Shown here one piece after another: positions 3,211 through 49,461 of a stretch of 64,000 nucleotides of DNA. This DNA comes from a virus, in IMG/VR virus record IMGVR_UViG_3300034022_000278, positions 24,043-88,042 of that record; one strand, written 5' to 3'. Within the stretch, counting starts at the first letter, position 1. The number at the start of each line of letters is the position of its first letter. The position numbers and the translations under genes are program-made. The notes below the pieces were generated by a model. It ran no database searches and was not told the origin of the DNA. It saw only the letters and a list, made by a program, of their open reading frames with translations.

Positions 3211-3229
3211 ACATTTAAATATTAGGAAT

Positions 3230-3487: not shown

Positions 3488-3500
3488 TTAAAATTAATGA

Positions 3501-3713
3501 ACTGTGAGTACCGATAATCCGCCAAATACATAATTATTTTATAGTTTTGGCACAGTATAAAATTACCCCGCTAGAAGTAAACAAATAATAAATGCCGCAC
3601 CTCTTGCGAGTGCTTAATGGATGACTTAACATCTACGGTAAATTGTTAGAATCCATATCAAGGTGGAGTTGTTTGTGGAAGGATATAAATAGAAATAATC
3701 CCGTCCTAGACGG
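3501..3713 (+). ncRNA. Series of hairpins in the 3.5-3.7 kb non-coding gap
   Basis: Three local structures: 3501-3506 with 3551-3556 (ACTGTG/CACAGT) stacked on 3521-3526 with 3546-3551 (GCCAAA/TTTGGC); 3617-3622 with 3651-3656 (ATGGAT/ATCCAT); and 3701-3705 with 3709-3713 (CCGTC/GACGG, loop CTA). No plausible ORF covers this interval. GC content is higher than in surrounding genes, as is usual for structured RNA in an AT-rich genome. Confidence 0.4.
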
Positions 3714-3766
3714 TGTAAATACTAAACTACTATATTCAGCAACTTGGGCTGACAGGGTATGTTATT

Positions 3767-3870
3767 GTGTTGTTCCCTTGAGAAAGGAGCACGAGCTATA
3801 ATTCATCAGCTATTGAAGAAGGTACATCGGAATAATGGTGTAGAGATTATATGCTGGTTTGTAACAACAC
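3767..3870 (+). ncRNA. Structured RNA with GAGA tetraloop hairpin, second family member
   Basis: An 8-bp perfect stem (3767-3774 with 3863-3870) closes a 104-base element. It opens with a hairpin at 3773-3789 capped by GAGA, with a bulged C in the same place as in the hairpin at 1943-1959. Further arms: AGCT/AGCT within 3790-3815 and a 6-bp stem TACATC/GGTGTA (one G-U). In the shared hairpin, G45:C57 of the first copy becomes C:G here and an A becomes a wobble-compatible G. The start also resembles a tRNA(Ser) D-arm, so a degenerate class II tRNA is an alternative. Confidence 0.5.
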
Positions 3871-3893
3871 AGAGGAGTTCTTAACCTCAACAT

Positions 3894-3969
3894 AGTGAGG
3901 TGGCGTAATGAGGCGAGGTTGCCGAGTCCTATATGGTTGCTTTACGGTTCGAGTCCGCCCTCACTGCCA
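3894..3969 (+). pseudogene. tRNA-like element with encoded CCA, probably degenerate
   Basis: The element has exactly the canonical 76-base length. AGTGAGG (3894-3900) pairs perfectly with CCTCACT (3959-3965), followed by G and CCA. A canonical T-loop TTCGAGT is present, but its stem has only three pairs (CGG/CCG). The D-stem has two pairs, and the anticodon arm has four pairs with a 9-base loop. I would not assign an amino acid. It looks like a tRNA decayed or remodelled around an intact acceptor stem. Confidence 0.45.
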
Positions 3970-4031
3970 TTAGCCCTCTGCCTAGCGCTGGGTATGGATC
4001 GAAGATAGGGATAGCCTCTTGAACGTTAGTT

Positions 4032-32000: not shown

Positions 32001-33113
32001 TTTCCACATTTCTGAAGCCTCTTGCTGTGCTCGCATGTTTGCAGCTTCTACTGCAGAAAATCCTGCTTGTAATATTGCATCATCGTGGCGACTTAAGTTA
32101 AGAGTATTAGTCGCAATCTTATTTACATCTCTAATATTTTGAAAAATCTGTTCTTGCGTTAATTTACCGTCTGTATATTGACGTACAAATTCTGTAACAT
32201 GATTATTCTTAATAGTTGTTAAATCACTTTGCAAGTCTTGTGCTTGGGCTGCTAATGCTCTAAATTTAGAACGTATTTCTGGAGTATTAAATTCATCTGA
32301 ATCTAAAAAAATATGTTGATTAGCTTCCGTAGAAAAATCTCCAGCTCTTAACCAAAGATCAATAATACGTTGAGCATAATAAGTATCATCAGCGCTTACT
32401 GCTGGATTTCTTAATAATTCTTCTACTTCTTTTAATTCACTTTTACCAAAATTTTCTATATCTTCAAAAGCTTTAATATTATTAGCTAATAATACTCTTT
32501 CTTCTGATTGTTCTAAACTCTGAATTAGTTTCTCTAATTTTTGTAAAGTAGTTCTTAACTCTGCAGGATCTTTTATATTAGCAAGATTTTGACGCTGTTT
32601 AATAATTTCTGTATTAATCTTATCTTTTCTTAATCTTTCTACAGAAATAACTTGATTTTCTGCATTAGCAATTAATTCGTCTGTAGAGGATAATCCATTA
32701 CGTTCTGATGTAATAGTTCCTGGATACATATAATTAAATGCAGAGCTATCAAAATCATTAACAACAAATACAGGATCTCCTTTAGCAGCATTTCTTTGTC
32801 TTTGCTTTTCAACATTAACTGGAAGATAATTATACTTCATAGTTAATTCAAAAGTATTTCCCCATAAATTTTTATAAGTAAAATAGTGGGAAGTACCATT
32901 TTGTTGGTTGTACTTCCTAATTCTAGCAGCAACTCCTGCAAAATTTTCTACTTTAGATTCAAATTTAATTGCTTTTTTTATCTCAGTAATACTTTTTACA
33001 TCAGGCATTTTGTAACCATTTGCTGCAAATGCCATATTTGCTAATGTGTCTCCTGTTTGCTTAACAAGGTCTTTCCATTCTTTAGTATTCTTATTCGGAC
33101 ACGCTAACGCCAT
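29079..33113 (-). CDS. Virion RNA polymerase-block protein 3, 1344 aa
   Basis: A 1344-residue protein, last gene of the late arm. The N-terminal ALACPNKNTKEWKDL is a start typical of one of the giant crAss-like proteins. The N-terminal 500 residues are coiled-coil-rich. Near the C-terminus is a glycine-zipper segment (GTALGAGIGYLGGKFFG) and a hydrophobic helix (MMTLMGIALFLKAM), compatible with membrane insertion during ejection. In related phages the large proteins at this place are packaged with, or form part of, the virion RNA polymerase complex. I see no catalytic motif in this one. It starts six bases after the RNAP-helicase gene. Confidence 0.75.
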   Translation of the reverse strand: MALACPNKNTKEWKDLVKQTGDTLANMAFAANGYKMPDVKSITEIKKAIKFESKVENFAGVAARIRKYNQQNGTSHYFTYKNLWGNTFELTMKYNYLPVNVEKQRQRNAAKGDPVFVVNDFDSSAFNYMYPGTITSERNGLSSTDELIANAENQVISVERLRKDKINTEIIKQRQNLANIKDPAELRTTLQKLEKLIQSLEQSEERVLLANNIKAFEDIENFGKSELKEVEELLRNPAVSADDTYYAQRIIDLWLRAGDFSTEANQHIFLDSDEFNTPEIRSKFRALAAQAQDLQSDLTTIKNNHVTEFVRQYTDGKLTQEQIFQNIRDVNKIATNTLNLSRHDDAILQAGFSAVEAANMRAQQEASEMWKKLDNLTKEFLKKSGGNFDILKQLTEDGKETGRTVNRFSSEFFEVRNELMKKAFWSRDPKTKKLTKNANGIKAYFDWTNKNTISFDPRILFEDSLQEDESTPAEFIYKRVSYNEGSKQKHIAELKSQLGEKGYEYYIKRVENKIEQFKIRRKAIYESMQMEPNLSQDEKDTLFENWLKEYSPYWGMDMAENPVSRKKGADSFYSPKGIREYIVQVPRKETVNGPTKWYDKNYAKIEADDALYNYHNYMMETLNTLRYTLPEQKKALMGVGVLPTIQKSLMDTFQEKGIMMGIIPFWDKMKQLQTTTDLATTVYSDVDPLTGNIEKNIQIQFIEDTAVKVRELVKQMQIQHKQETGKAATNEDNLRFNREAKDAISKEKSWDVTKILKAYSLNILAYKHKSIIEPQIKLLEQAFKSRKELVTNKAGQSQFDENGKPLTKEGLDNLKSAWDFFMDSTFYGIGGRKVEGVSKTKLYTKAEETRKKELEALLATETDQDSKDFLQGQIDSLGGFRTLSGVGDTVLKYMTLKGLGWNFFSASSNIGFGVISNMVQGADGREYSATDLRKAYLLTTNSIGKNLSFNAWEGVNSNGVKIRTLMDKWDLLQTSNKEMFDMSQKSSMSKLKRFGPFSLQERSEYLNYAPVMIAVMMSKKPDNSPQFPATGPDGEVVTMWDAYDIESGTLKPGFTTDIDETKMVQKIKRVIEMNHGDYNNALQVKSTIGGRALSQFRTWMFEGFANRFESEKVDYALSYGLDEPYIRKGRYKSYTKGQLLTTGAAVGTMFLPGVGTALGAGIGYLGGKFFGMQTNENAVSDTLFTLKQLARKLMFKKTQFGERFDDTDAANIRKNMTELYIMMTLMGIALFLKAMAGDDDEEDQIITNFLLNQTIRLRTDIGFYTNPLEFEKLTKTAVPMAALVEDVNSLVGDVGGYLNDKDDDDIFEGGPFKGNSKFLVHLGEALPIGAQAIRLYRTGQRTIE

Positions 33114-33119
33114 AATGTT

Positions 33120-36100
33120 TTATTTACCACAAATTAACAAATAATTTTTGAATTCTTCACTGTCAAAAGTAAAGTCGCCAAGTAACTCATTTTCACCCAT
33201 CATTTTTTGATAAGCATCCCAGTCATCGTCACTTGGTCTATTTTCATTTCTATTGCCTTCATCCTCACCGTAAGAAGAAGTTGGTATAGTGCTGTAATCT
33301 ATTCCTAAATTTCCTAAGACAGATAAGTTAAGACCTGTAGGCGCTTCTACTTTTCCTGTGTTTTTATTAGAAACCATTACTAGTTTAGTAGTAGGTCTAG
33401 AAACTGCTACGTATAAAGATTGATTCTTAGCTTTATTACTTCCTGCATTAGAAGATCCCATAATATTATCCTCCATTACATATACATTAGTATAAGTAGA
33501 TCCTTGAGCTTTATGGGAAGTTAATGCATAGCCGTATTCTAAATTTCCAAATTTAGCTTGTAAAGCGTAAGCCAATTGTCTGTCAGTATTCCACAATTGT
33601 TTTAAAGTTGCAGCATATTCTTCTTTGCTAGATTCTGCTATTATAGGAATTTTAACAGGATTACCATTTTGAGAAACAATTTTTCCTGCATCATCCTTAA
33701 GAGTAAGCAAATCTACATCAAATTTATAATTTTTATTTCTAGTACCTTTTGCTCCAGAATAAACATTAACATTTACTAAGTACTCTGGACTAAATTCTGA
33801 AGATACTACTACCATATCTTCACTATTAAAGAATACTATATCTACCTCTTCTTTTCCTTGATTAGGATTGTAAGAATCATAAGCTGTTAATATTTCTCCT
33901 GGAATAAATTTCTCAGTAGTTGCTCTATCTCCAAATAATTTAGTTCTTACTTTTCTATTAAGATTTTTAACACTTTGGCCACTACTATGATTTTGATTGT
34001 TAAATGTTACTATTTTAGCAAAATTAACATCTCCTTTAGCTTGCTGTACATCTTCAACAAATTGAGTTAAAGCTGTATCTTCACTTTTTTCCCAAGTTAT
34101 AGAAGAACCACTTACTGCGTCGTACATATCTACTCTATCTACAGAAGTAATTGGATTAGCTACCCTAGAAGTATTGTTTTCAGCATTAGCTGCTATCTTA
34201 GTTCCTATACCAATAATAGGAGAAGTAGCTGCTTGACGCATTTTTTCTGTTAAAGTATAACTATTTTTTAATCCAAAAACATCACTATCTTTTTCTTGAC
34301 CAACTGGAGGCAATTGAGCTCTATCGCCCATAAAAATAACTTTAGCTCCTTGAGATACCCATTTCTTAATTTCACTTAGTAATTCATCGGATACCATAGA
34401 ACTTTCATCTATAACGATAATTTGTCCATTTTTAATAGGAACTCTTCCTTTATCTCTAGCAAAAGTATCTGGTTCAAATTTACCCGTACTTTCGTCAAGT
34501 TTAATAGCTAAAGCAGAAGCAAGAGTTCTGATATCAGCATTTATGCCTTTTAAAGATTTTGCTAATACTTTTTTAGCTTTATGAGAAGGAGCAATTGCTA
34601 AAATTCTTTTATCTCCTACTTGAGATAGTATCTGCTTAATAATAGTAGTCTTACCTGTTCCTCCTTTACCTTCTAATAAAAATGCTTTTTCATCCGAATT
34701 TAAGAATTCTTTAAGTTTATTAATAGCAATAGTTTGTCCTGCATTAGCAAATACTCCTGGGAATATTTCGTACTTAGTATTTACTGGAGCTTGTTGTTGA
34801 GTAGATAATTGAGTACTTCTTAATTGTTCTACTACTTCAGCTAATGCTGTAGGATGCATTCCTTGACCTCTAGCAGCAGACTTACCTGCATATAACAAAA
34901 TAGCACTGTCTAGTTTACCTTGGTTAATTTGATCAAGTATCCATTTACGTTGTTCTTGATTTCCTGCAAAATCTTCTGCTTCACCGCTTTCATCTAACCA
35001 AGTAGCGTATCCTGTAAGTAGCCAATCTTTATAAGCTTGTACAGCTGTTTGTATAGTAGGTACTTTTCTAGTATTGCCGTAACCAGCTTCACTAAAAGGA
35101 TTGCCAAAATGTTCATTCTTGTTAGCTACTTCTGTACGCATGGTATTAACTCCTTCTGGAGTATAGATAGGTCTAGTTTTTAAATCTCCTGACCATTCTC
35201 TTGATGTATCTATTGTAGGTTTAACACTAGTTGGTTTTGTAGCTACAAATTCTTTAAATCCTTTTATATCTTTAGCCGATCCTAATGCAAGAGTTTGTTC
35301 TGCACTTCTAACTAGTATTTGATCTTCTATTCCTCCTAATGGATCTGTAATATTAGTACCTATAATACCGTCACCTTCTTTATTAGTTTCTGTTTCAGTA
35401 TAATTAACTCCATCTAAAACTGTAGGATTTTCTAAGTTAACTATAGCAGCTATACTTTGTAATTTAGTTGCAGCACCTGGTTCATATTGTTCTCTATTAA
35501 ATTGATCCCAACTTGCATATCTAGATGCAGTAGTTAAATCACTAAAATAAATTCTATCATTTTGTGGAGTCAATTGCTCGATAACATTAGGAGCAGCTGT
35601 ACCGTGATATAGAATATTTTTTACTTTACTGTTAGGAAATACTCCATCAAGATATTGAGAATATTCTTCCTGAGTTCCTATTTTAGCTAGTTCAGGATTA
35701 GCTTTAAATAATTCTGCTACTCCTTCTTTAATATTAATAGATGGTTGAGTAGTATTTTTAAATATATTACTATACATATCAGCTTCTGATATTCCGTCTT
35801 TAGCTAGTTTTCCTGATATTACTGCATATAATAAATTAGGTATTTGTTCTTTAAAAGTTGTTCCTACAAAAACATCTTTTCCTCTTAATCCTTCTTTTAT
35901 AAGAGTCTTAGCTTCTTCCCCAAAAGAAATCCTATCTTTTATACTACTTTCTTCCTGTACTAATAATTGAATAGTTTTAAACTCACTTACTAATTGTAAT
36001 TCATTATTTTTATCGTTAATCCAATTAGGTATAACAGAGTTTACAAAGTTTTTAATATTTTCTGATAAAGTATTTATAGTAGATGGTTGTATAGTAGGCA

Positions 36101-39100
36101 CTCCTTGTGTATTAGGTTTATTTTTTAATGCATCATATTTCTTTTGACCAGTTTTAGCATTCATTGCTTTTAAAATACCATTTCCTTGAGCATATTCTGC
36201 TTTAAGTACTTTGCCATTACCGTCTACTTGGAACTTATAACTATTGCCGAATTCAAAGAATTCTTTAGTGTCTATATTGTTTTCCTTAAGAGTTTCTTGA
36301 TTAGCTTGAATTAAATCCATTGTACTTTTAACAGTACTAGCTAATGCAGAACCTGGTTTAATATCTAGCCCTAAAGCATTAAGTAAATCTGCTAATAATT
36401 CTTTTAATTGTTCCCAAATAGATATTCCTGCTTCATCAGTAATACTATTTAAATGTTCTTGAAAACCTATATCTGTAAGAGCCATTGTGACAAACTCTTC
36501 TAATTTAATAGCACCGTAGTATTTACTTAGATACTCAGGTAGATTTTTTGTATCAGGACTAAATACTGTAGATCTGCCTTCTTTAAAATTTGTATATAAT
36601 CGTTGAAATTCTTTTAATCCTTCATCACCTTCTTTAGCTATTAATTGATTAATATATAATTTTTGAAGAGACTCTAATTTTTGTATAGCATCAATTGTTT
36701 TAGCAGAAAGCCCATCAATATTACCCGATTGGTATGCTTTAATACTAGCAGCAGTGAAAGTATGAATTAACTCATGCGCAGCTACTACAGCTAAACCATT
36801 AGCATCTTGATTTCTTGGATGATTTAAGTTTATATTTAAAGTTCCTGTAGATGCGCTGTAAGATCCTCTACTAGTAGTTTTATTATAAGTAACATTAAAG
36901 TTTTCAGGTAATTGCAATCCTCTAATTATTTGTAATAATTGACGATTAAGAGTAGATACTCCTTCAGCTGTTTCTATATTATTTAATAAATCATCAAGAG
37001 CTTCTGCAGTACCTGCTAAGTTTCTAGATATTCCTAAATCTGCAATAGTATCCTTTTTAGCAGTATTATTTACTACGTTAATTTTAAATTCTTTTGACGG
37101 AGTAACTGGTACACCAGATATTGTATAACCAGGAGCTCCTTGTTGAGGTAGTGGAGAAGTGACTACATTTTTAATTTCAGCAGGCATTGCATTTCTAGCC
37201 TGAGAATTATAACCTACAAATCCGTAACTACCCGATAAAACAGGAATTCTACGATAAACTCTATCTACACTATCAAATTCGTATAAAGCATATTTAGAAG
37301 GTAACTTAGTATCATAAATGCTTAAGAAATGCGTTTGTGTTAATGTAGGCTCTCCTGTATTAGGGTCAGTAACTTCTACAAAGTTATCTTTTAATGCTTC
37401 TTCATTTAACGTAAAGCTTCCTTCAGGAGATGCTACTATATTTCCTTTTAAATTACTTAAACTAACTGTTTTAGTTTTATCAGGATTATTTTGTAAATAT
37501 TGTCTAGTAAATGCAGAAGGTTGTGAATAAATAGGACCATCCTCTGCTACGTTTCCGTAGAAAGTATTTACAAAGTCAAACGGTACTCCTTGTAAGTATT
37601 CACCAAATCCTAATGATTTTAAATATGCAGTAGGAACAAATTTCAAATATTGCTTAGAACCTTGTTTACCTCCTTCAAGGAAAGCTGCTGCTACAAGTTC
37701 TTGTGCCAACATACGACTAGTATAGTCAATGCCGTTAAACCTTCCTACAGAGAAGTTTTTGCTTAGTAAGTAATTAAATCCATCGTAGATATTTCTTTCG
37801 TCGAAATTCTCTCCTGCAGCTGCTTCAAAGTTAATTCTAGAAATAGTACCGTTTTTGTTAATATCAAAAGAAAGTTTGTTAAGGAATCCATTCTTTTGAA
37901 ACCAAGGGTTGGTAGATAACCCATTTAAAATAGTAGCCAAACTATCATTTTTAGGCTTAGTAGCAGTTTTCTTAGAATCAATAAATAATCTTCTTCTTTC
38001 TACGTCTGGGTTTTCTCCAAATAGATTAGTATTAGTATTGGCATATAAATAAGAACGCATTTCATTAAATACTTCTCCTTGAGTTTCTACTAATTTAGAC
38101 ATACTCATAGAAGCCCCTTTAGGCAAATGTGTTCTTACTTCAGATATAATTGTTTTAAATCCTACATTTTTATATGGAAAATACTCATTAAAAATTTGAT
38201 CGGCAAACATCGTACCGTAGTAAGAAGCATATCCGTTAATAGTAGTAGGATCAGCAAGTTTACCTTCTGAATATTCCCCCAGTAATTTTTGCGCATTAAA
38301 TATTTGTAAATAAGGTAATCTTTGTATTTGTTCTACTTTACTTTCAGTCTCTAGTAAAGATTTAGGAATACCACTAGACTCAGTATTAATAGTAGACTGT
38401 AGTACCTTAATATTTTTACCAATTTCTGTTAAATTTTGGAATTTCTCTAATAATGCTAATTGCTCTAAATTAAAATCAGGCGTATTATCCTTCGGATCAA
38501 TAGTTAAACTCTTATTTTTAATATTATTTATTAAATCCTCACCAGATTTAGAAGACATTTGTTCTAATATACTAGGATTTAATTCTTGATAAGTTCCTTT
38601 AGGGTCGTATTTTGCAGCTAATGCTGTAAAAATATCTTTCTCTGCATTTGGATTATAAGAAGTTAGAGAAGATCGTGCATCTCTTAATTTATCCACATAT
38701 TCCCAGATAATCTCTTGAGTTATTAATCCTACTATTTCTTTTTCTTCAAACCCTAATAATGTTAGGGCCCGAATTACATCAAAAGTTTCATCATTAATAT
38801 TTAATTTATCTAATATCTGTGCTTTTTCGTTATCCACAGCTGTAGATTGTAGAGCTCTAATAATAGTAGACTTAAATTTCAAAGATTCTTTCTCTTTATC
38901 CGTTAATTCTCTTTTCTCTGCTTTAGCTTTATTTATAAGATTCTGAGATTTTAATGTGTATTTACCTGATATATCTCCTTTAGATTCTACTTCACCAAAT
39001 GTAGCTAATGGTAAATTATTTTCTAGTAACTCTGCAGTTGTAGGAACTCTAGGGTCTAAGAATGTTCCAAATAAAGCTTCTCTAGTTTCTTCTGTTAGAT

Positions 39101-40556
39101 TTTCAAGAGTAATTTCCTTACCCTGTGCGGTAGCATTAAAAGTAGAATCTAGTGAAAAAGACCCTACTCCATTTTTACCAGCAGTAGCATTGATAAATTT
39201 AGTACGTTGGTAGCTATCGGATAGGATAATAGGTAAGGCTTTATCAGCATTTCTACTGTTATTAATTTCTGAGGCCAAACCTTCAAATTCTCCAAAGGAG
39301 TCTAATGCCATTATAGAATTGATAATTTCAGGATTAGAACTTTTCATTATTCTAAGGTGAATATCTATAATATTATTTTGTCTAGAAGCTTTGTATGATC
39401 TTTTAAGTATTGAAATAGTTTCAAAAGTATTATTTAAAGCATCAGCAAGATCTTTGTTAGATTCTTTAGATAATATCTCTGCAATAACTTCTGAAGCTTT
39501 TTTAGCATTCTCACTAACTATTTCTTCACCTGCTTCATTAAGATTAATTTTTTCCTCAATATAAGCATCTATTGCTTTTCTATCTTCTTTGTTTAAATTT
39601 AATTGCTCTTTTAGGTCTTCTAAATGCTGCGTTTGAATTTTTAAAGATGCAGCAATTTTCTTTTTATCCGACATAAAACCTGTTTGGATTTTACCGTCTT
39701 TATAAAAATGGTTGTACATATAGGTGTACAATTTATCGACATCAAAATCCGATCCCATCTGCTTAGTGAAATCCCTCGGTGCTAGCATTAAATCTCCCGA
39801 AGCTTCTGGTAAGAAGCCTACTATTTCTACAGCTGCCATAGAGTTACGCTCCTGTGTAGGAATACGGAAACCAAATAATTGTAATAGTTTTTCTGGAAGT
39901 TTAGTTGTATCTAGCAACATTCTTCCATCTTCTCCTTTTATAGTAAATTCTTTTAATGATAAAATAGCACCATTTTCATCTCTAAATTTAAATGGTATCA
40001 TTATTTGTGCAGGAAGTATTTTTTTATTCTCAAAATCCCAACGCATTGGTTGTAATCCTTTAATTGGATCAAAAGAACTAGTAAACACTACATTAGATTT
40101 TTTTAATTCTCCTGCAGTATCGTCACCTTCTTTAACTTGAAAACCTTCTTGTGACCCAAGTACATAGGAGTTACCAGGGAATTTTTGCTTTACTACTTTA
40201 TTACTAACGAGAGACGTAAGTAAACTCTCAAATTTATCTTTATAAGGAGATGCCCATAAAGGAATTTTAAAATCTGTACCGTCGGCATTAAGCTCTAAGG
40301 AAGACAGCATATTTTGCGGATATCCTTGACGTGTTTTTACTTCATTAGCTAGTATTTTAGCTAATTTAGAAGCAGGTATGGCTTCATGTTTTTTAGTAAA
40401 AGTTTCTGTTTTTATTACTTTAGCAGAATCTAACTTAAACCCTTTTATATCAATTGTTCCATCAGAGATTAAAGTATCTAACAGTCCTGCATTTAAAAGT
40501 TCTTTTAATTGATTTTCTGTTACCCAATCTCCGTTAACAAAATATTCACAAGCCAT
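33120..40556 (-). CDS. Virion RNA polymerase polyprotein: DFDVD, zincin, ART-like, DUF4326-like, SF1 helicase
   Basis: A 2478-residue protein. Residues 270-274 are DFDVD in GSDFDVDKLYTYMYNHF, the Mg-binding motif of crAss-like virion RNA polymerases (phi14:2 gp66 type), near a PRDFTKQM stretch. Residues 1261-1265 are HELIH in VVAAHELIHTF, a zincin-type zinc motif. Residues about 1640-1770 (LYHGT with H1651, IYFSD with Y1670, QILV near the end) resemble an ADP-ribosyltransferase fold. Residues about 1790-1900 (HFGNPFSEAGYG, G1818; AYKDWLL) resemble DUF4326. Residues about 1945-2430 are an SF1 helicase of the RecD2/Dda type: GKGGTGKT (K1969), VIDESS (D2050), GDRAQLPPV, TSHKAQGS (2347-2354), VAVSRP. 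It should transcribe early genes after ejection; processing into parts is likely. Confidence 0.88.
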   Translation of the reverse strand: MACEYFVNGDWVTENQLKELLNAGLLDTLISDGTIDIKGFKLDSAKVIKTETFTKKHEAIPASKLAKILANEVKTRQGYPQNMLSSLELNADGTDFKIPLWASPYKDKFESLLTSLVSNKVVKQKFPGNSYVLGSQEGFQVKEGDDTAGELKKSNVVFTSSFDPIKGLQPMRWDFENKKILPAQIMIPFKFRDENGAILSLKEFTIKGEDGRMLLDTTKLPEKLLQLFGFRIPTQERNSMAAVEIVGFLPEASGDLMLAPRDFTKQMGSDFDVDKLYTYMYNHFYKDGKIQTGFMSDKKKIAASLKIQTQHLEDLKEQLNLNKEDRKAIDAYIEEKINLNEAGEEIVSENAKKASEVIAEILSKESNKDLADALNNTFETISILKRSYKASRQNNIIDIHLRIMKSSNPEIINSIMALDSFGEFEGLASEINNSRNADKALPIILSDSYQRTKFINATAGKNGVGSFSLDSTFNATAQGKEITLENLTEETREALFGTFLDPRVPTTAELLENNLPLATFGEVESKGDISGKYTLKSQNLINKAKAEKRELTDKEKESLKFKSTIIRALQSTAVDNEKAQILDKLNINDETFDVIRALTLLGFEEKEIVGLITQEIIWEYVDKLRDARSSLTSYNPNAEKDIFTALAAKYDPKGTYQELNPSILEQMSSKSGEDLINNIKNKSLTIDPKDNTPDFNLEQLALLEKFQNLTEIGKNIKVLQSTINTESSGIPKSLLETESKVEQIQRLPYLQIFNAQKLLGEYSEGKLADPTTINGYASYYGTMFADQIFNEYFPYKNVGFKTIISEVRTHLPKGASMSMSKLVETQGEVFNEMRSYLYANTNTNLFGENPDVERRRLFIDSKKTATKPKNDSLATILNGLSTNPWFQKNGFLNKLSFDINKNGTISRINFEAAAGENFDERNIYDGFNYLLSKNFSVGRFNGIDYTSRMLAQELVAAAFLEGGKQGSKQYLKFVPTAYLKSLGFGEYLQGVPFDFVNTFYGNVAEDGPIYSQPSAFTRQYLQNNPDKTKTVSLSNLKGNIVASPEGSFTLNEEALKDNFVEVTDPNTGEPTLTQTHFLSIYDTKLPSKYALYEFDSVDRVYRRIPVLSGSYGFVGYNSQARNAMPAEIKNVVTSPLPQQGAPGYTISGVPVTPSKEFKINVVNNTAKKDTIADLGISRNLAGTAEALDDLLNNIETAEGVSTLNRQLLQIIRGLQLPENFNVTYNKTTSRGSYSASTGTLNINLNHPRNQDANGLAVVAAHELIHTFTAASIKAYQSGNIDGLSAKTIDAIQKLESLQKLYINQLIAKEGDEGLKEFQRLYTNFKEGRSTVFSPDTKNLPEYLSKYYGAIKLEEFVTMALTDIGFQEHLNSITDEAGISIWEQLKELLADLLNALGLDIKPGSALASTVKSTMDLIQANQETLKENNIDTKEFFEFGNSYKFQVDGNGKVLKAEYAQGNGILKAMNAKTGQKKYDALKNKPNTQGVPTIQPSTINTLSENIKNFVNSVIPNWINDKNNELQLVSEFKTIQLLVQEESSIKDRISFGEEAKTLIKEGLRGKDVFVGTTFKEQIPNLLYAVISGKLAKDGISEADMYSNIFKNTTQPSINIKEGVAELFKANPELAKIGTQEEYSQYLDGVFPNSKVKNILYHGTAAPNVIEQLTPQNDRIYFSDLTTASRYASWDQFNREQYEPGAATKLQSIAAIVNLENPTVLDGVNYTETETNKEGDGIIGTNITDPLGGIEDQILVRSAEQTLALGSAKDIKGFKEFVATKPTSVKPTIDTSREWSGDLKTRPIYTPEGVNTMRTEVANKNEHFGNPFSEAGYGNTRKVPTIQTAVQAYKDWLLTGYATWLDESGEAEDFAGNQEQRKWILDQINQGKLDSAILLYAGKSAARGQGMHPTALAEVVEQLRSTQLSTQQQAPVNTKYEIFPGVFANAGQTIAINKLKEFLNSDEKAFLLEGKGGTGKTTIIKQILSQVGDKRILAIAPSHKAKKVLAKSLKGINADIRTLASALAIKLDESTGKFEPDTFARDKGRVPIKNGQIIVIDESSMVSDELLSEIKKWVSQGAKVIFMGDRAQLPPVGQEKDSDVFGLKNSYTLTEKMRQAATSPIIGIGTKIAANAENNTSRVANPITSVDRVDMYDAVSGSSITWEKSEDTALTQFVEDVQQAKGDVNFAKIVTFNNQNHSSGQSVKNLNRKVRTKLFGDRATTEKFIPGEILTAYDSYNPNQGKEEVDIVFFNSEDMVVVSSEFSPEYLVNVNVYSGAKGTRNKNYKFDVDLLTLKDDAGKIVSQNGNPVKIPIIAESSKEEYAATLKQLWNTDRQLAYALQAKFGNLEYGYALTSHKAQGSTYTNVYVMEDNIMGSSNAGSNKAKNQSLYVAVSRPTTKLVMVSNKNTGKVEAPTGLNLSVLGNLGIDYSTIPTSSYGEDEGNRNENRPSDDDWDAYQKMMGENELLGDFTFDSEEFKNYLLICGK

Positions 40557-40567
40557 ACTAATATTTA

Positions 40568-41050
40568 TTAATTGCCTAATTCTTGATCAAATAGTAACAT
40601 GTTATCTGTGAGAGCTAATCTTGCTAATAAATCTAAATATTCCCCAACAGCCCCTACTTGGTGCGTAGTAAAATCTTGTAATAAAAGCGCTACTTTTAAA
40701 GATAAGTCAGATTTTACTGCGGCACTTTCGTAAGCAAATAGTAAATCTCTTTCCATTTCAAAGGCATGCTCTAGTGCACCTTTAATATCAGATATACTAC
40801 TGGTAACAGCTTCTAAGGCCCCTACAGAAAGCTCACTATTTAAATCATTAGCAAATTTTTCTATCTTTTGATAGTGTTCTCTTTCACTGTTAGACTCAGA
40901 AAGAAAAAACTTTTCTGCTCCAAAATATCCTAAAGTCTTCATTCTATTACTTAGATGTAAGTAATTTTGAGACGCTGTTAATTCTAAAGTACCAAACTTG
41001 TTTAATTCTTTTTGTTCTATTTCACTAAGTAATTTTTCCATTATTAACAT
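40568..41050 (-). CDS. Ferritin-like protein with complete ferroxidase site, 160 aa
   Basis: A 160-residue four-helix protein. Ligands align with bacterial ferritin FtnA: E23 (ELTASQNYLHLS, FtnA E17), E56 and H59 (SEREHYQK, FtnA E50/H53), E100 (EMERDLL, FtnA E94) and Q131 (TTHQV, FtnA Q127). Spacings are 33, 44 and 31 residues against 33, 44 and 33. The tail LLFDQELG resembles the fifth-helix start of ferritins (LYFIDKEL). It should oxidise Fe(II) and may form a cage. M4 (41041) is an alternative start, two bases past the upstream stop; M1 overlaps that stop by seven bases. It lies between the two genes carrying the RNA polymerase core halves, in the late operon. Confidence 0.87.
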   Translation of the reverse strand: MLIMEKLLSEIEQKELNKFGTLELTASQNYLHLSNRMKTLGYFGAEKFFLSESNSEREHYQKIEKFANDLNSELSVGALEAVTSSISDIKGALEHAFEMERDLLFAYESAAVKSDLSLKVALLLQDFTTHQVGAVGEYLDLLARLALTDNMLLFDQELGN

Positions 41051-44000
41051 TTTTTAAATTCTTTATTCTCGTCAAAGAAGACATTCATATTAGCCGCAAC
41101 TAGAGATTCAATAATACTATTGAAATTTTTGTTTATAAAGTTAACTCTTTCTAATGTATTATCGCCTATTTCTTCTGCAAAATCTTGTTGTAATTGCACT
41201 TTAGTCACTGGACTAGCGCCTTTTAGTTTTTCTACTAATACCTCATTTTGATCAAATATAGTAGAATTTGGCACAGTTAATAAAGAAGTTATGTCTGCTT
41301 TAGAACTCACTTCTTCTACTAATCCTAATTTATTAGACAATTCTTCGTAAGCATATTCGTATAATTCTAAATAATTTTTATTATACAATGCCATTAAATC
41401 GTCACCTTTAACACCTGGTTCAATTTCTAAGTCTAAAGTATTTACAAATAATAGCTTACGTTCTTGAGTACCAATATTTACAGAATCTTTTTCTCTTTTA
41501 TAAGGAACATCTTGCTGTATTCTAAAGTTTTGTCTAGACAATAGTAAAGCATTATCTTCAGATATTACTAAATTATCTACTACATTACCGTCTTTATTGA
41601 ATACTTTAACAGCATTTTTAATTGCTCCTACTTTATTGGCAGTTCCAAAAGAAGCTCTTACAAAAGCAGGTGTTCCATCGGCAGTTACTTTGCTTCCTAT
41701 TTCAGTTTCAAAAGTTTCTAATCCTTTACGAATTTTATCTATTTGCATCCCTACCGTAAGTTCAGGTAATAAGGGAAAACTAGAAGACTTAATATAAATA
41801 CGTTTATCAGCATTATCCTCAGCAGAAGCAGTATTACCTACATATACAGGTTTCATTGGCTGCATAATAATACCCATGTCCTCGTAAGAAAGCTTATTAG
41901 ACTCTCTAAAATCTCCTCTAGATTGTGCTTCTAATTTCTTGTAGAAATCTTTATACTGTACAGAAGTCAATCTACCTAATTGCTTCATTACGTATAAATG
42001 CTCTTTCCAAGTAGTATATTCCTGAGCATCGGAGCCTTCTATTCCTGAGTAATTATTTGCAAAGTCTTTAATAATTTTAGAGAAAAATTCTTTTTGTGCA
42101 GAATCTTTAACATTATTACTTTCCATTTTCTCATCCTCAAAGAATACTTGGTAATATTTATTATTAGCACTATTAGCTAACTCCATTCCTGGAGCAATAT
42201 CTCCTGCAAGACGTTTACCAATGTTTATAAAAGTTTCTGATAGATTCTCTGTTAAACTTTTCTTAGAATTAAACTTAGCATATAAAGCAGGATCTCCTGC
42301 AAATAATTTATGTGCTTCAGCATTAGCAATTAAATAGTTAAATATATAATCAGCTGCTGCATACTTTGTTTTAGAAGCGCCTGTACCTTTTGCTACTCGA
42401 GTCATATATTCTTTATCTAAGAAAGAATAGTTGTCTGTAACTCGGCCTTTATCATCAGTAATAACTTTACCTATACCTAACTTGTCCCAGTCTGCTAACT
42501 TATTTGTTAATAAATTATCAAATATTCCTTTAATTTCAGCTAATACAGCTGCTTTAACTTCTGTAGAATATACGGTATCATCTTTATCTTTTACGATATC
42601 TAAGAATGCTCTATCTTTTCCCCCTGCATCACTGCTTATTTTTAAAGTATTTAAACTGTGTAGGAAATAGAAGTAATTAGGCTCGTATCCTTTAATATTA
42701 GTAGATTGCTTATCTCGGATTCTATTTATTTCTGGTACTACTAACGCATTATAAAGCAATTCAAGATTTTCTAGAGAAATTTCTCCATCCTCTAACTTTA
42801 ATTCTCTAGCCAAACTAGTTACAGTTAGCATAGTAGTTTTATCGGACATTGTAGGATAAAAGAAATCTACTATTCTACGATCTTCTCCGTTAATATTATC
42901 TCCAGATACATTTTGGAAAAAGGCAATTTTAGCTACTTCGTGTTCTGCTGTAGTTAAGTTATTTAATTTTCTATTATCTTGTGATTTTGTAAATGCTTTT
43001 TTAAGCGCTTCAAGAGACAAATAATTTAATTTAAAATTATTTCTCATTGCTATTCCTGCATCCTCTTTATTAATTAAGTCTGCTAGCCAAGAGCTATTTT
43101 TAGTAAAAGAAATATTTTGTAAATTTTTAATTAAGTCTGGATTTACAAATGTACCATCCTCAGAATTATAAGCGGTTAAATCTCTCATTCTATTAATAAG
43201 GAAATTATTATTTCCATAAGAATAAATAGTTTTACCACCTGCTTGAAAAGAATTACTAAAAGTATTTAGGTTATTAGTTGCTTCTAATTTAGCTAATGCT
43301 TTTACTACGGAGTCATTAAGTAATTCTGAATCTTCAAAATTAACTTTCCCTTTTACTTTTTTATCTAAAGCAGTTGATAGTGCTTTTACTAAACCTGCTC
43401 CATTAGTAAATAAGGCATTCCAAGGTTTTCTTCCGTTATTATTAAACTTACCTTTTCTTAAATCTTCATAAGTCTTATCTGTGAGCACTATTCCAAAATT
43501 ACCTAACCATATAGCTAACTCGTCGTTAGTTACTTCAGCAGGGTTCTTAGCCCACTCAGCAGCTTGATCTTTTAATCCCTTTGCTACTACTTCATTGAAG
43601 ACATATTCGTCGTCTTCATTTACAGTTATTAAATTACTTTGAGTAGCTACCCCTTTTAAATTAGAATTCCAAATAGTTTTTAATCTTTGTTCAATAGAAG
43701 ATGAATTACTAGACCATTTTTGTAGAGAATAATTTCCTTTGTAATCTTTACTCCACATAATAAATTGCATATTAATGTGGTGCTTAGTCATTGCGGAAAC
43801 AAATTCATTTTGAATTTTTTCTGGAGCAGCTTCTAATTGCGCTATTGCAGATTTAATCCAAGGGAATTTCTCTTGGTGTAATTCTAAAATGTCTAACATC
43901 GTAGAATAATCTGCAGGAATATTTGTTAATAATTCTTGTAAAGTATTAAACACAACATCGTAAGAAAGTATCTCAGGTAATCCTAATAGATTCACCATAG

Positions 44001-47000
44001 GCCCTTCTTCGTCTTGTGCTTGCACAATACTAAAGAACTTCTTAAGGTCTGCAGATGATGTAGACTTTGCACTAACAGTAAATGCCCAGTCATCTGTGTA
44101 AGCAGTACGAACTAAACCTGAAACTCCTTCATTGTCATCTAATTCTACATCTTCGGAAACATCCCCAGTAGAGAATTTACTCATATTTTGATTAACTAAT
44201 CTACGTACTTTATCAAATTGAGCAATTACTGAATCCAATCTTGCAGCTTTATTAGGTAATCCTTGTTCTTTATAAAACTTAGATAATTGTTTAAAAGATT
44301 CTAAATGTTTATCTAAAATAGGTTTTACTTGTACTTGTTTTTTACCTGCAACTTCTTTAGCTTTTAAACCTTCATTTACAATGTCAGAAGACAAATAAGC
44401 AATTAAAGATGATTGAGTAGCAGTATCTAAACCTCTAACAATCATTTCGTCAATTTCTTCTCGTTGAGCATTTAATTGCTCAGGAGTCATTTCTGAAACT
44501 AGTTCGTCTGTTTCATCTTCTTCTAAAGGATTGCTGTCTACATCATTTTTGTTTGCTTTAATTACTAAACCATTTGGTAAAGTAATAGTTTCAGTTTTTT
44601 TAGAGTTAGCAATAAATATTTCTTTAGCTTTTGCATAAGAAGCTTGAGCCTGTTCTAGTGAAGTAAAGTTTGCTTGCAGTACAAGTTCTTCCGATATTGC
44701 GCCTAAATCAAAGCTTTCTAAAATACCGTTTAATTCTGTTAGATTAGTGCCATTAGCAATAATACTCTTAGCACAACTTTCTATTAGAGCTTCTTCAGTT
44801 AACGTTTCTACTTCTTCTTCAGCTGTTACTTCTTCTTGTTGTTTTAAAGCAGCAAGTTCTGCATCATATTCTTCAAAAGTTTTACTTGTAAGTTCTTTAT
44901 ATCCTCTATTGATTAAATCATATAATTGTCCATCAAATTTATCTTTGAAATATAGTAAATGTTCTGGTTGAACTTTTTCACCGTACATTTCATAATTGAC
45001 TTGTTCTAAAAATTCTTTTCCTGTTTGTTTTGTATTTACAAATAGTTTTCCTCCTGCATAGGCTTGTCCTATTTTTTTTATTTTAATTACAAAATTATTA
45101 TTTTCTATATCAGCTGTAGTAGTTTGTTCTAAAGCATTTAGTTCTGCATCATATTTAGCATTGATTTTATCTCTTTTTTCTTGAACTATTTTATTAAATT
45201 CATCAATTTCTTTTTGTTTTTTTAATAATGCTTCTGTTGGGTTTTGTCCAAGATTTACATTTGCAAACAATTTGTTTTCAGTAAGAAATAATTCTTTTTG
45301 TCTTCTTGCTTCTATATCAGCTTCCGCAGCTGCTTGATTTGTAGGGGCAACGGTTGGGACTGTTTTTTTTGCAGTTACAGGCGCAGTTGTTACTCCTTTA
45401 GCTATTGCTGTTTTAGCTTTAGGCCTAGCAGCACGTTTTTGTTTTCCTTTACCTAATTTTGCAAAAGCAGTATCAAATAAAATAGTAGGCTGAATAGTAT
45501 AAGCCCATACAGGGTTTTCTGCAGAACCTACATTTACAGACAGTATATTAGTTTTATGAGAGTCTTTTACTACTTGTGAATATTTAACAGTTTTAGTAGC
45601 ACCTGCATTATCCAATAAAATTATTGAATCTTTATTAGCCGCTAAATCTTTTCTGCTAGCATTAGAAAGTGGTGTAAATTGTTCTAAAGTAGCTCTAAGT
45701 TTTGATAGTCCCGCTTTATTAGTTGCTTCACCGACTTTAGATTTAAAGTTTTGAGATAGTACTATAGAAGCTTTAACGACTTTTACCCCATTCTTAGAAT
45801 GAGACCCCATATTAACTCCAGGACGACCAAATTCTATACCCGTAGCAGTAACACTAATTAAAGGCATGTTAGACTTTAATTCTGTTTCTGATCCACCTCT
45901 AATTAAATAACTTTCTAAAGAAGCAGCTTTATCTGTAGGGAATAAATAAATAAATTGATTTAAATATTTTGATAACCCTGGGAGAGTAGTAATGTCTAAG
46001 CCAAGGGAGGATTCTGCTATGGCCTTAACTACAGCGTTTTCAGTATCCCCTGTTAAATGCGCTTCAATCGCGAACATTACAGTGTCAATTATTTCTTGAG
46101 AAATAGGTTGTCTTTCTAGTGGAATAGGTAAATATTCTTTAGGACCAACTTTAACGATAGCATAAACTCTACCATCAGTTGCTGTACTTTTTAATATAGT
46201 ACCACCTTTTAGTACAATACTTGCATCTCCAGGTAATTGGAAAGTACCGTTACGTCCTACTGCAAAAATAAGATTAGGATCAGGCATTGCCTCTGACACT
46301 GCTATAGCTTTACCATCAAAACTTTTAAACAGTTTACCAAAACTTTTATAAGATACCTTAGTCTTTACTGGTACTCCTTTTGAAACTATTGCTTTTCTAA
46401 TTTTAAAATTCTTTTCTCTATCCTCAGCAATTTCTTCTGCAGTAGCACTTAGATTTTCTTCTTTATACCAAGAATTATCGTGTACATAAAAAACAGTATC
46501 TCCTTCATCAGTAGTTACTTTAATAGGAACTTCTTCAATGTATTCATCTAACTCTGTTAGGGGAATACCTTTAGATTCTGCTAACTTTTGTAATTCTATT
46601 TTTCTTAATACCCAAGGAGTTTTTTGTCTAGTATCGGAATTAGGATCGTATTTGTCTCCAGCATATTCTGTATCTACAGCCATGTTAAGAGCAGTGCCCT
46701 CTGTTAAGAAATCTGGATTTAATAATTCTATATTATCCAAACTATTTCCTAACTCTTCCCTGTCTACTTTCCCTGTGGCTTCAGTCTGATTAAATTCTCT
46801 TGATAAATAAGCAGCTCTATTATGGCCCTCAGCACTTCTCGCATAGCCATAAATTAAATTACCTTGTTCATCTTGGCCAATAATCATAGTCTTATCCTCA
46901 GAAGCAAGTTTTTGAGCAGCATTAGCTACTTCATCTTCTACTGTTTCTTTTTCAGAATTTGGATTAGGAAAATCTTTAGGAATATTAGTACCAAAGCTTT

Positions 47001-49461
47001 TATTTTCAGCTTCTACTTCAGCCTCTAACTCTTCAGGAGTTTTTGAATTAAAATTAGCAAGAGGGTCTTCCTCTTCTTCTTCTACGTCTTCTTCTACTAC
47101 AGGTTCTCCATTTAGTTTACCTATTTGAGCATTTAATGCATTATTTAAGTTAGTCTTATGATCTTGAGATATCTCTGCCTTAGATATTTCATCGGAAATT
47201 TCCTCTATATTTTCTAAAGTAGCATTCTTTATTTTATTATTTAATTTATCTACTACTACAGTAGTCTGTTTATTCTTAGCAGCAATATTATTATCTTCTA
47301 CTAAGGAAGCAATCTTTTTATTAGCAGCTTCTTTAAAATCTTTATCGTCAATAGAATCTCTTAGCTTTTCTATTTCAGAAATATTATTAATTTTAGGTAA
47401 AGCAGCATGTGCTTCTTTTACTCTTACAGCATTCTCTTTACGCTGTTCAGCTTTTTTCTGATATTCTGGACTAGTAATTTCTTCAAATTCTTTAGAATTA
47501 TTTAGAACTTCATTTTCTAATTTATCTAAATTTTCTTCAATATTAGTAGCAGCTTTAAAAGATGGCAATGCTTTTACTTCTGCTAAGAATTTATTATAAA
47601 TAGCTTGCTCTTCTTCTGTACGACCTTGATTATTTTCTAAATCAGATGCAGAATAACTTAAAGGTACTTTATCTACTACTTTTTCTGTGCCTGTAACTTT
47701 ACCATCTTTTTTTAGAAGAATTTCTCTTTCTCTATCGTAAGTATATTTAGCAGCAATAGTATGTAAATCTTTACTTAATTGGAAGTCTGCTTGTTTTTTT
47801 AAATTTTCTGTATTTTTAGCAATAGCATCTAGTCTAATTTTATTAGACCTATTAAAGAATATCTCATCAACATTTGCATAATCCTCAAAATTGTTGTATA
47901 CAGCTTCTAATTCTTTTAGTTTTACTATAGCATTTTTAGCATTATCTATATACTCTTGTCCAACTTCTTCAGGATTTTTTGCAGCCTCTGCTTTATATAA
48001 TTCTTCTAAAGTTTCTGTAGTCCCACTTTCAAAAGATCTTATAGCTTGGTTTTCAAATATCTGTTCTTTTAGTTTCTCTACTTCTTCGGTATTGCCTGCT
48101 TCCGATGCTGCAGTAAATTTTGCTTGTAATACTAAATTATCTCTAAAGTTTTTTAATATGTCTGTACTATTGACACCTTTTTCCTTTAAATCATTTAAAA
48201 TCTCTTGTTGCTTAGCATATTGCTCTCTTTCATAAGTAGCCTTACTAATCTTATTTCCATTAGCATCTAAAGTATTTCCTGGGCCATACTTAGAGTACTC
48301 TAATGCTTTAGTTCCTCCTGTTTGTGCTATACCTCCAATAGCTCCTAAGAAAGCTGCTTCAAAGCCTTCCATAGTACCCATATCTTCTATTGCATTCTGA
48401 AAAGTATAATCTTTACCTTTTCCTTTTGCTGTACCTGCTTTTTCTGCTACAAGATTTATAAGTTCTTCTGTTCCTTCTTGAACGCCTTCTGCGACTAGTT
48501 TACCCGCAACAGCAGTCTTTGATGCTTGCTTTAATAACTGTCTAGTACTTTTTAGTGGAGTAATAAACGCAGAAGCTGATGATAAATTTAATAAAATATT
48601 AATTCTATTTAAATTCATAGTAGTAGAAGCAGCTTGAGCAGCCATTGCTTTTGCTTTATCTATACTATAACCTTTAGTTAAATTATCTTGGTAGGTATCA
48701 TTAAATACTTGTGTAGCAGAAATAACTGCTTCAGATTGATTAAGTGCTACAGCATTTGCTAATCCTGTTGTTCCTTGTAATAATTGTTTAGATTTTTGGG
48801 CACCCATTATCATTCGGGCTAAATCTTTACCTTTTGATAAAGATGCTACACCTTTTAATCCCACAGAAAGTACTTTACCCATTCCCGCACCTTGTGCAAG
48901 AAAACTACCCACTGATTCTACTAATCCTGAACCTCTTGACATCCACCAAGCAGGATCGCTAATATTCATAGACTGAGGAGATTCCTCATAGATAGGGAAC
49001 CAATCTTCATCTACTTCTTTCTTTAAATCTTGTGCCCAATTTACTATGCTATTTTGTGCAGCATGCTCACTATCCCAGTATCCAGGAAGATCGACCATTG
49101 AACTAAATCCACTTACAATTTGCGGTACTACGTTTACAGCAACTCTTGCTACAGCATTACCTGCTTGATCCCAATTAGATTGGTTAGTAGCTCTAATTTT
49201 ATTTAATTCTTCTACAGAAAATTGACCCCCACGTAGAGTATTTCTATTAATATGATTTTCGTAAGGGTCAAAAAAGTGTTCATCTTTTTGACCGTAAGTA
49301 GCTTGCAAACCTGTAAATTCTGCTTCAGGTCCCGCCCCTATCCTATCTACTACTTCTTTATCGTATCCTAAAGTTTTATCTGCCTTACTTGCAAGAATCT
49401 TACCTTGTTCTCTTGGAGAAAGAACAGTTTTGCTCTTGTCTGAACTATTTTTTTTATCCAT
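41044..49461 (-). CDS. Giant virion protein with RNA polymerase first half at the C-terminus, 2805 aa
   Basis: The largest protein of the window. Residues 1-400 hold hydrophobic, Gly-rich stretches (LVESVGSFLAQGAGMGKVLS, then AAFLGAIGGIAQTGG) that could insert into membranes. Residues 400-1000 are coiled-coil and very acidic (EEDVEEEEEDPLANF). The centre is Ala/Lys/Glu-rich. Near the C-terminus, DVPYKREKDSVNIGTQERK (GTQ at 2664-2666) with paired Lys looks like the first double-psi beta-barrel region of crAss-like RNA polymerases; the second, with DFDVD, is in the next large gene. A candidate TAnnTTTG box lies 17 bases before the ATG. It is probably cleaved or threaded on ejection. Family placement is good; the internal boundaries are inference. 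Confidence 0.8.
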   Translation of the reverse strand: MDKKNSSDKSKTVLSPREQGKILASKADKTLGYDKEVVDRIGAGPEAEFTGLQATYGQKDEHFFDPYENHINRNTLRGGQFSVEELNKIRATNQSNWDQAGNAVARVAVNVVPQIVSGFSSMVDLPGYWDSEHAAQNSIVNWAQDLKKEVDEDWFPIYEESPQSMNISDPAWWMSRGSGLVESVGSFLAQGAGMGKVLSVGLKGVASLSKGKDLARMIMGAQKSKQLLQGTTGLANAVALNQSEAVISATQVFNDTYQDNLTKGYSIDKAKAMAAQAASTTMNLNRINILLNLSSASAFITPLKSTRQLLKQASKTAVAGKLVAEGVQEGTEELINLVAEKAGTAKGKGKDYTFQNAIEDMGTMEGFEAAFLGAIGGIAQTGGTKALEYSKYGPGNTLDANGNKISKATYEREQYAKQQEILNDLKEKGVNSTDILKNFRDNLVLQAKFTAASEAGNTEEVEKLKEQIFENQAIRSFESGTTETLEELYKAEAAKNPEEVGQEYIDNAKNAIVKLKELEAVYNNFEDYANVDEIFFNRSNKIRLDAIAKNTENLKKQADFQLSKDLHTIAAKYTYDREREILLKKDGKVTGTEKVVDKVPLSYSASDLENNQGRTEEEQAIYNKFLAEVKALPSFKAATNIEENLDKLENEVLNNSKEFEEITSPEYQKKAEQRKENAVRVKEAHAALPKINNISEIEKLRDSIDDKDFKEAANKKIASLVEDNNIAAKNKQTTVVVDKLNNKIKNATLENIEEISDEISKAEISQDHKTNLNNALNAQIGKLNGEPVVEEDVEEEEEDPLANFNSKTPEELEAEVEAENKSFGTNIPKDFPNPNSEKETVEDEVANAAQKLASEDKTMIIGQDEQGNLIYGYARSAEGHNRAAYLSREFNQTEATGKVDREELGNSLDNIELLNPDFLTEGTALNMAVDTEYAGDKYDPNSDTRQKTPWVLRKIELQKLAESKGIPLTELDEYIEEVPIKVTTDEGDTVFYVHDNSWYKEENLSATAEEIAEDREKNFKIRKAIVSKGVPVKTKVSYKSFGKLFKSFDGKAIAVSEAMPDPNLIFAVGRNGTFQLPGDASIVLKGGTILKSTATDGRVYAIVKVGPKEYLPIPLERQPISQEIIDTVMFAIEAHLTGDTENAVVKAIAESSLGLDITTLPGLSKYLNQFIYLFPTDKAASLESYLIRGGSETELKSNMPLISVTATGIEFGRPGVNMGSHSKNGVKVVKASIVLSQNFKSKVGEATNKAGLSKLRATLEQFTPLSNASRKDLAANKDSIILLDNAGATKTVKYSQVVKDSHKTNILSVNVGSAENPVWAYTIQPTILFDTAFAKLGKGKQKRAARPKAKTAIAKGVTTAPVTAKKTVPTVAPTNQAAAEADIEARRQKELFLTENKLFANVNLGQNPTEALLKKQKEIDEFNKIVQEKRDKINAKYDAELNALEQTTTADIENNNFVIKIKKIGQAYAGGKLFVNTKQTGKEFLEQVNYEMYGEKVQPEHLLYFKDKFDGQLYDLINRGYKELTSKTFEEYDAELAALKQQEEVTAEEEVETLTEEALIESCAKSIIANGTNLTELNGILESFDLGAISEELVLQANFTSLEQAQASYAKAKEIFIANSKKTETITLPNGLVIKANKNDVDSNPLEEDETDELVSEMTPEQLNAQREEIDEMIVRGLDTATQSSLIAYLSSDIVNEGLKAKEVAGKKQVQVKPILDKHLESFKQLSKFYKEQGLPNKAARLDSVIAQFDKVRRLVNQNMSKFSTGDVSEDVELDDNEGVSGLVRTAYTDDWAFTVSAKSTSSADLKKFFSIVQAQDEEGPMVNLLGLPEILSYDVVFNTLQELLTNIPADYSTMLDILELHQEKFPWIKSAIAQLEAAPEKIQNEFVSAMTKHHINMQFIMWSKDYKGNYSLQKWSSNSSSIEQRLKTIWNSNLKGVATQSNLITVNEDDEYVFNEVVAKGLKDQAAEWAKNPAEVTNDELAIWLGNFGIVLTDKTYEDLRKGKFNNNGRKPWNALFTNGAGLVKALSTALDKKVKGKVNFEDSELLNDSVVKALAKLEATNNLNTFSNSFQAGGKTIYSYGNNNFLINRMRDLTAYNSEDGTFVNPDLIKNLQNISFTKNSSWLADLINKEDAGIAMRNNFKLNYLSLEALKKAFTKSQDNRKLNNLTTAEHEVAKIAFFQNVSGDNINGEDRRIVDFFYPTMSDKTTMLTVTSLARELKLEDGEISLENLELLYNALVVPEINRIRDKQSTNIKGYEPNYFYFLHSLNTLKISSDAGGKDRAFLDIVKDKDDTVYSTEVKAAVLAEIKGIFDNLLTNKLADWDKLGIGKVITDDKGRVTDNYSFLDKEYMTRVAKGTGASKTKYAAADYIFNYLIANAEAHKLFAGDPALYAKFNSKKSLTENLSETFINIGKRLAGDIAPGMELANSANNKYYQVFFEDEKMESNNVKDSAQKEFFSKIIKDFANNYSGIEGSDAQEYTTWKEHLYVMKQLGRLTSVQYKDFYKKLEAQSRGDFRESNKLSYEDMGIIMQPMKPVYVGNTASAEDNADKRIYIKSSSFPLLPELTVGMQIDKIRKGLETFETEIGSKVTADGTPAFVRASFGTANKVGAIKNAVKVFNKDGNVVDNLVISEDNALLLSRQNFRIQQDVPYKREKDSVNIGTQERKLLFVNTLDLEIEPGVKGDDLMALYNKNYLELYEYAYEELSNKLGLVEEVSSKADITSLLTVPNSTIFDQNEVLVEKLKGASPVTKVQLQQDFAEEIGDNTLERVNFINKNFNSIIESLVAANMNVFFDENKEFKKC

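Follow-up and report, generated by a model that had tools for sequence, protein, structure and literature searches.

A ferritin gene between the two parts of a crAss-like virion RNA polymerase and its possible link to injected giant proteins

Ferritin gene, broken polymerase and cargo neighbours

The window, that is, the whole stretch of 64,000 nucleotides analysed here, carries a phage ferritin gene at 40568..41050 on the minus strand, an assignment based on a PF00210 match, AlphaFold and Foldseek, 85 relatives with invariant ligands, and dN/dS. Read from 41050 to 40568, the gene encodes the 160 residues originally predicted, or 157 from an in-frame ATG at 41041, which is equivalent to the start (MEKLL) of many ferritin relatives. 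All main genes from 63903 to 29079 lie on the same strand. The ferritin gene overlaps the end of the giant ORF upstream by 7 bases, and 11 bases separate its own end from the giant ORF downstream. A promoter scan around the gene revealed no excess with respect to shuffled sequence.

The upstream giant ORF (41044..49461, minus strand, 2805 aa) corresponds to the N-terminal part of a virion RNA polymerase (phrog_16227, E=9.6e-72) and holds a GTQ motif at 41464-41472, on the same strand. The downstream one (33120..40556, minus strand, 2478 aa) corresponds to the catalytic half, with the DFDVD motif at 39735-39749 on the minus strand (phrog_16227, E=4.2e-70; phrog_325, E=9e-70); it matches gp50 of crAss001 and holds a RecD/Dda-like helicase at its C-terminus (AAA_30, E=1.7e-23). 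Both ORFs match one single 4401-aa protein of Flavobacterium phage Fpv1 (gp33, phrog_16227), in the regions 1981-2680 and 3006-4015, the match of the upstream ORF being also given as gp33 1982-2990. The barrel assignment of the two halves derives from these motifs and from the homology to Fpv1 and crAss001, and a PDB sequence search with both halves gave no match. The virion RNA polymerase of crAss-like phages has been described as a two-barrel single chain (PMC7886860). In the window, the barrel halves are encoded by separate ORFs and the ferritin gene lies between them, precisely where the original prediction had placed it, after the gene that ends in the GTQ half and before the gene that begins with the DFDVD half. 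As read from the predicted ORFs, the single-chain virion RNA polymerase is split by a ferritin gene into two chains.

Among relatives, the polymerase-half ORF with its helicase ranges from ~1480 to 2513 aa, and the helicase part (window 33354-34745, residues ~1938-2400 of the downstream ORF) has apparently been gained or lost often. Residues 1602-1781 of the same ORF form a domain without a Pfam name, common to giant proteins of other phages (L034, L038, L078).

The break was surveyed in 79 loci anchored on the catalytic half of the polymerase, independently of ferritin. In 14 of them the start of the catalytic ORF lies immediately ahead of the second barrel, and a ferritin gene stands directly before this ORF in all 14, so that the search for ferritin at the same place in other crAss-like loci, suggested with the original prediction, was positive for every polymerase broken there. 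In the other loci, the polymerase is unbroken at this point. Alignment with intact relatives (L074, L075, L078 and L080) indicates that the insert consists of a C-terminal tail of ~89 aa on the upstream ORF (41047..41313, minus strand), the ferritin, and a leader of ~53 aa at the front of the catalytic half (40398..40556, minus strand); tail and leader are both absent from unbroken polymerases. No clear loss of polymerase sequence is seen at the break when compared with the nearest unbroken relatives (L074, with 46-58% identity in the catalytic half). A search for ferritin elsewhere in 11 records with an unbroken polymerase, in Fpv1 and in crAss001, with a positive control that worked, found none. 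A -1 frameshift fusion of polymerase and ferritin, suggested by the stop/start overlap at TTTAAAAAATG, was discarded as a general mechanism because the spacing varies considerably among relatives, from -14 to +23 nt.

Further upstream are homologues of crAss001 gp45, the cargo protein C1 (52146..55004, minus strand; phmmer E=1e-23), and of gp44, the muzzle protein (55004..59392, minus strand; phmmer E=2.2e-39; phrog_28748). The muzzle, C1 and RNA polymerase of crAss001 have been located in virions by cryo-EM and mass spectrometry (PMC10172136). The next gene of the cargo block (29079..33113, minus strand, 1344 aa) is of the gp49 type by position only, the order being the same in clade-1 loci; its product has no sequence match with crAss001 gp49. 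The phage is Crassvirales-like, as TerL (best named match, Cellulophaga phi14:2), portal (phrog_6547), muzzle, C1 and RNA polymerase are all homologous and stand in crAss order. The ferritin is encoded among known cargo genes (the gp44, gp45 and gp50 homologues) on the same strand, which bears out the proposed position in the late virion block.

Fold and di-iron centre of the ferritin

Ferritins are iron stores of the cell. The product of the gene at 40568..41050 matches the Pfam Ferritin family (PF00210) with E=2.9e-12 and 47.2 bits, against a cut-off of 24.5, and PDB ferritins by sequence with E=2.4e-6. Its AlphaFold (AF2) monomer model (pLDDT 93.5, pTM 0.87) shows five helices (residues 10-40, 43-69, 89-111, 118-148 and 151-159), which represent a four-helix bundle and a short fifth helix, helix E. 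In Foldseek, the comparison called for by the original prediction, the model matches bacterial and archaeal ferritins, with TM ~0.9 against those of V. cholerae, E. coli and archaea. The homology being far beyond chance, the product is, according to sequence and predicted structure, a genuine non-haem ferritin, as first proposed. The phage ferritin is under purifying selection, with dN/dS of 0.04-0.14 among close relatives of the window protein and of 0.01-0.14 across phage ferritins.

The five main di-iron ligands had been correctly located: E23 (40982..40984; E17 in E. coli FtnA and E27 in human H-ferritin), E56 (40883..40885; E50 and E62), H59 (40874..40876; H53 and H65), E100 (40751..40753; E94 and E107) and Q131 (40658..40660; Q127 and Q141), all of them on the minus strand. 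They are invariant in 85/85 members of the clade of the window ferritin and in 6/6 members of a second phage lineage. This invariance supports a predicted ferroxidase chemistry.

The likeness to FtnA put forward originally holds for the fold and the ligands, but not for the details of the centre, which is closer to that of human H-ferritin. The window protein exhibits A134 and E137, as in the two-site centre of human H-ferritin (Ala or Ser at 134, Glu at 137), and the assignment to this type relies on the fact that the third-site residues of FtnA, E49 and E130, are replaced here by S55 and A134, which also led to rejection of the E. coli FtnA subtype. Bacterioferritin was discarded, given Q131 and A134 instead of Glu and His at the fifth and sixth ligand positions, and so was Dps, given the predicted helix E and the complete intrasubunit ligand set.

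A viral ferritin family and its movement between lineages

A scan of IMG/VR with the window ferritin yielded 20 close relatives, and profile scans raised the number of matching stretches to 54 and then to at least 109, all of them metagenomic contigs in which kin sequences do not count as independent events. When 84,980 genomes of bacteria and archaea were scanned with patterns built from phage members, to which typical cellular ferritins are invisible, three matches were obtained. Two of these are short contigs in beta-proteobacterial MAGs, viral in look, with phage-like genes and with an upstream ORF ending in the same C-terminal tag described below; the third is a distant actinobacterial ferritin. 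Among 399 Pseudomonadota genomes, the phage ferritin model reached at most 73 bits, in comparison with at least 188 bits for members of the phage family in six phage records. This is, in essence, a viral family. Among the named phages of GenBank, none matches the window ferritin, and divergent relatives used as queries retrieved one weak unannotated record only, MT838721.

These data also bear on the suspicion that a host ferritin was joined to a phage contig by an assembly or annotation error. No point in support of such an artefact was found, more than 100 viral contigs share this kind of arrangement, and the phage model gives host ferritins much lower scores (73 bits at most versus at least 188 in the six phage records); this explanation can be regarded as refuted.

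A maximum-likelihood tree groups 84 phage ferritins in a single clade (100/95), distinct from FtnA-type proteins, and places a second, smaller phage lineage (L081-L084, L109 and L138) separately from it, although deep placements are unsure owing to long branches. The second-lineage ferritins hold an FtnA-like Glu at position 134 and are encoded directly after an intact crAss polymerase in L081-L084 and L138, and at a greater distance downstream in L109. A third arrangement, seen in L001-L007, L015, L018 and L022, has the ferritin before an unbroken polymerase of a distant lineage. In other phage groups, the ferritin is flanked on both sides by giant proteins that contain polyvalent domains (ART-PolyVal, LPD38, MuF_C, Zeta toxin), a type of protein predicted to be injected (PMC5512222). 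It adjoins the portal gene in L042-L053 and a minor head gene in L035 and L041, and two relatives (L183 and L184) have no cargo neighbour. In L042-L053, a crAss-type portal (phrog_6547) is followed by the ferritin and then by two unnamed genes of ~380 and 451 aa.

Identities between loci point to exchange. L015 and L016 share 88% of the ferritin and 27% of the polymerase core; the window and L001, 83% and 31% (polymerase), respectively; and the window and L016, 65% and 77%. By these comparisons, the ferritin gene passes from lineage to lineage without following the polymerase, and the leader appears to be left behind in such exchanges (44% identity, versus 83% for the ferritin). This decoupling, as in L015 and L016, would suit a freely exchanged passenger cassette of ferritin and tags with little role in the virion. 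Such a cassette is improbable: the dN/dS values of 0.01-0.14 and the conservation of the C-tag at the protein level point to a maintained function, the leader does not co-move in recent exchanges, and the site holds no mobility gene.

Terminal tags, proposed role and known systems

The giant proteins on both sides of the ferritin carry characteristic ends. The upstream one usually ends in NFxxIIxxL...(K/I)(K/N)C and MxCxY... opens the downstream one. In the window, the last 40 aa of the upstream ORF (41047..41166, minus strand) form a C-tag with the motif NFxxIIxxL...KKC, defined by HMM, collection scan and conservation, while the ~53-aa leader of the catalytic half represents an N-tag, MACxY..GxWxSExxxKxxLxxGLLD. 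A C-tag HMM matched 97 ORFs in 188 loci, all 97 directly upstream of a ferritin. A model built from the non-crAss cluster only recovered 13 crAss members at E<0.01, and every match at E<1 is adjacent to ferritin. When the viral collection was scanned by the C-tag alone, a ferritin start was present directly downstream, within 25 nt, in 56/56 loci, about a dozen of them on new contigs. The C-tag recurs on non-homologous proteins and is 60-96% identical, most pairs having a dN much lower than dS, whereas identity over the 60 codons that precede it is mostly 23-53%. As for the N-tag, 98 of 99 HMM matches are adjacent to ferritin, and leader-like starts are also present on some crAss proteins without ferritin. 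Neither tag is required everywhere, because they are missing where the ferritin is encoded next to the portal or the minor head gene, or after the polymerase.

Cysteine is frequent at these ends. It occurs in the last 6 residues of 80/100 ORFs upstream of ferritin, versus 77/476 other ORFs, and in the first 10 residues of 85/101 downstream ORFs, versus 101/476. The crAss001 cargo proteins gp47, gp49 and gp50 (L058) also show a near-terminal Cys, without ferritin.

Judged from its distribution, the C-tag is best explained as a partner of ferritin, most simply as a docking peptide, because it is kept only beside ferritin and on otherwise non-homologous proteins. A need of the ferritin ribosome start was rejected as the cause, since it would conserve bases, whereas it is the residues that are conserved. 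A general occurrence of the tags on crAss cargo proteins was dismissed for the C-tag, which has no matches elsewhere, and holds in part for the N-leader. An AlphaFold model of a read-through of C-tag and ferritin was of low confidence (pLDDT 58).

The specificity of the tags, and their presence on both polymerase halves exactly at the break, would also fit a ferritin that acts mainly as a structural hub, a scaffold collecting giant cargo in which iron serves folding or assembly and not metabolism. This is unlikely, as the five ligands are invariant in very divergent members (85/85 and 6/6), beyond what a pure scaffold needs. A somewhat stronger case, though still one we hold to be rather doubtful, can be made for a metabolic gene whose product is not packaged. 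The ferroxidase site is intact, a few relatives (L183, L184) have no cargo neighbour, and virus-encoded proteins have been read in this way elsewhere, as with the ferritins of giant viruses (PMC7136201) and the Dps and Mn-catalase of gut phages (PMC8008677). This reading leaves unexplained both the fixed place between injected giant proteins and the C-tag found only with ferritin; a metabolic gene could occupy any late-gene site, with no need to break a polymerase.

The reading preferred here, to which we give about an even chance, is that of a catalytically intact ferritin, expressed late from a gene amid the virion-cargo operon, which probably binds the flanking giant proteins and is packaged together with them. 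The C-tag and, less certainly, the N-leader would each dock its giant protein on the ferritin, and the halves of the split polymerase would be kept near each other in this way. The ferritin would then enter the virion and be delivered into the host, probably as subunits or small oligomers, since the whole ferritin cage, of ~12 nm, is too large for a phage portal. In crAss001, cargo has been proposed to be partly unfolded on leaving (PMC10172136). In the first minutes of infection, the ferroxidase might remove Fe(II) and peroxide, or store iron, around the incoming polymerase and DNA. The virion part of this function is supported by the location in virion-cargo modules of several lineages, while the fact that crAss001 and Fpv1 manage without ferritin, and that no named phage carries it, counts against a packaged dock. 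A more complete version is offered tentatively, as possible but less than probable: the ferritin would be a cargo dock that gathers end-tagged giant injected proteins for packaging, delivers an iron-oxidising centre together with the polymerase and, in the crAss-like clade, holds the cut polymerase together.

The literature search for phage ferritins found no description of this ferritin family, and the novelty claimed for crAss-like phages is supported in the literature searched and by the lack of a named carrier in GenBank. Such genes have been annotated automatically before, as in the BFVD entry "putative bacterial non-heme ferritin" from an uncultured marine phage; what appears to be new is the ferritin family, together with its place and the tags. 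Phage Dps (PMC8008677) and giant-virus ferritins (PMC7136201), already known, belong to another family and context. The more than 100 other viral contigs in which relatives lie by giant injected proteins or head genes suggest that phages package a ferritin, and a strongly selected viral clade in such a place points to unstudied iron chemistry at the start of infection and offers a way to test, at the protein level, the link that has been proposed between phages and iron. The recruitment of giant proteins into phage heads is poorly understood, and the end tag specific to ferritin provides a definite candidate for a signal by which cargo docks. The split would, in addition, turn a single-chain virion RNA polymerase into a two-chain enzyme.

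Several known systems share part of these features. Domains of the polyvalent injected proteins (Iyer et al. 2017, PMC5512222) occur in the ferritin neighbours of other lineages, and that paper contains zero mentions of ferritin. The polymerases of phi14:2, crAss001 (gp50) and Fpv1 (gp33) are the same protein, with the same gene order and DFDVD motif; however, they are single chains, in contrast to the two chains and intervening ferritin gene of the window. Dps proteins are likewise phage-encoded members of the ferritin superfamily (in Gratiaviridae, PMC8008677, and, in BFVD, in the uncultured phages cr106_1 and cr108_1), but they lack helix E and hold their site between subunits, and the two BFVD entries show a weak structural match to the window ferritin (TM 0.44-0.60). 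Giant-virus ferritins (PMC7136201) are also encoded by viruses, but by eukaryotic ones, where they have been read as metabolic and have no virion-cargo context. The closest counterparts are the non-haem ferritins, such as the human H-chain and bacterial FtnA, with which the phage protein shares the four-helix bundle with helix E, the E/E/H/E/Q ligands, a length of ~160 aa, TM ~0.9 and a conserved Tyr near the site. Contrary to them, the phage ferritin is only ~20% identical and forms a separate clade (100/95), exhibits the phage-invariant residues Y107, D140 and E137, lacks the third iron site of FtnA, and is encoded in virion-cargo or head modules.
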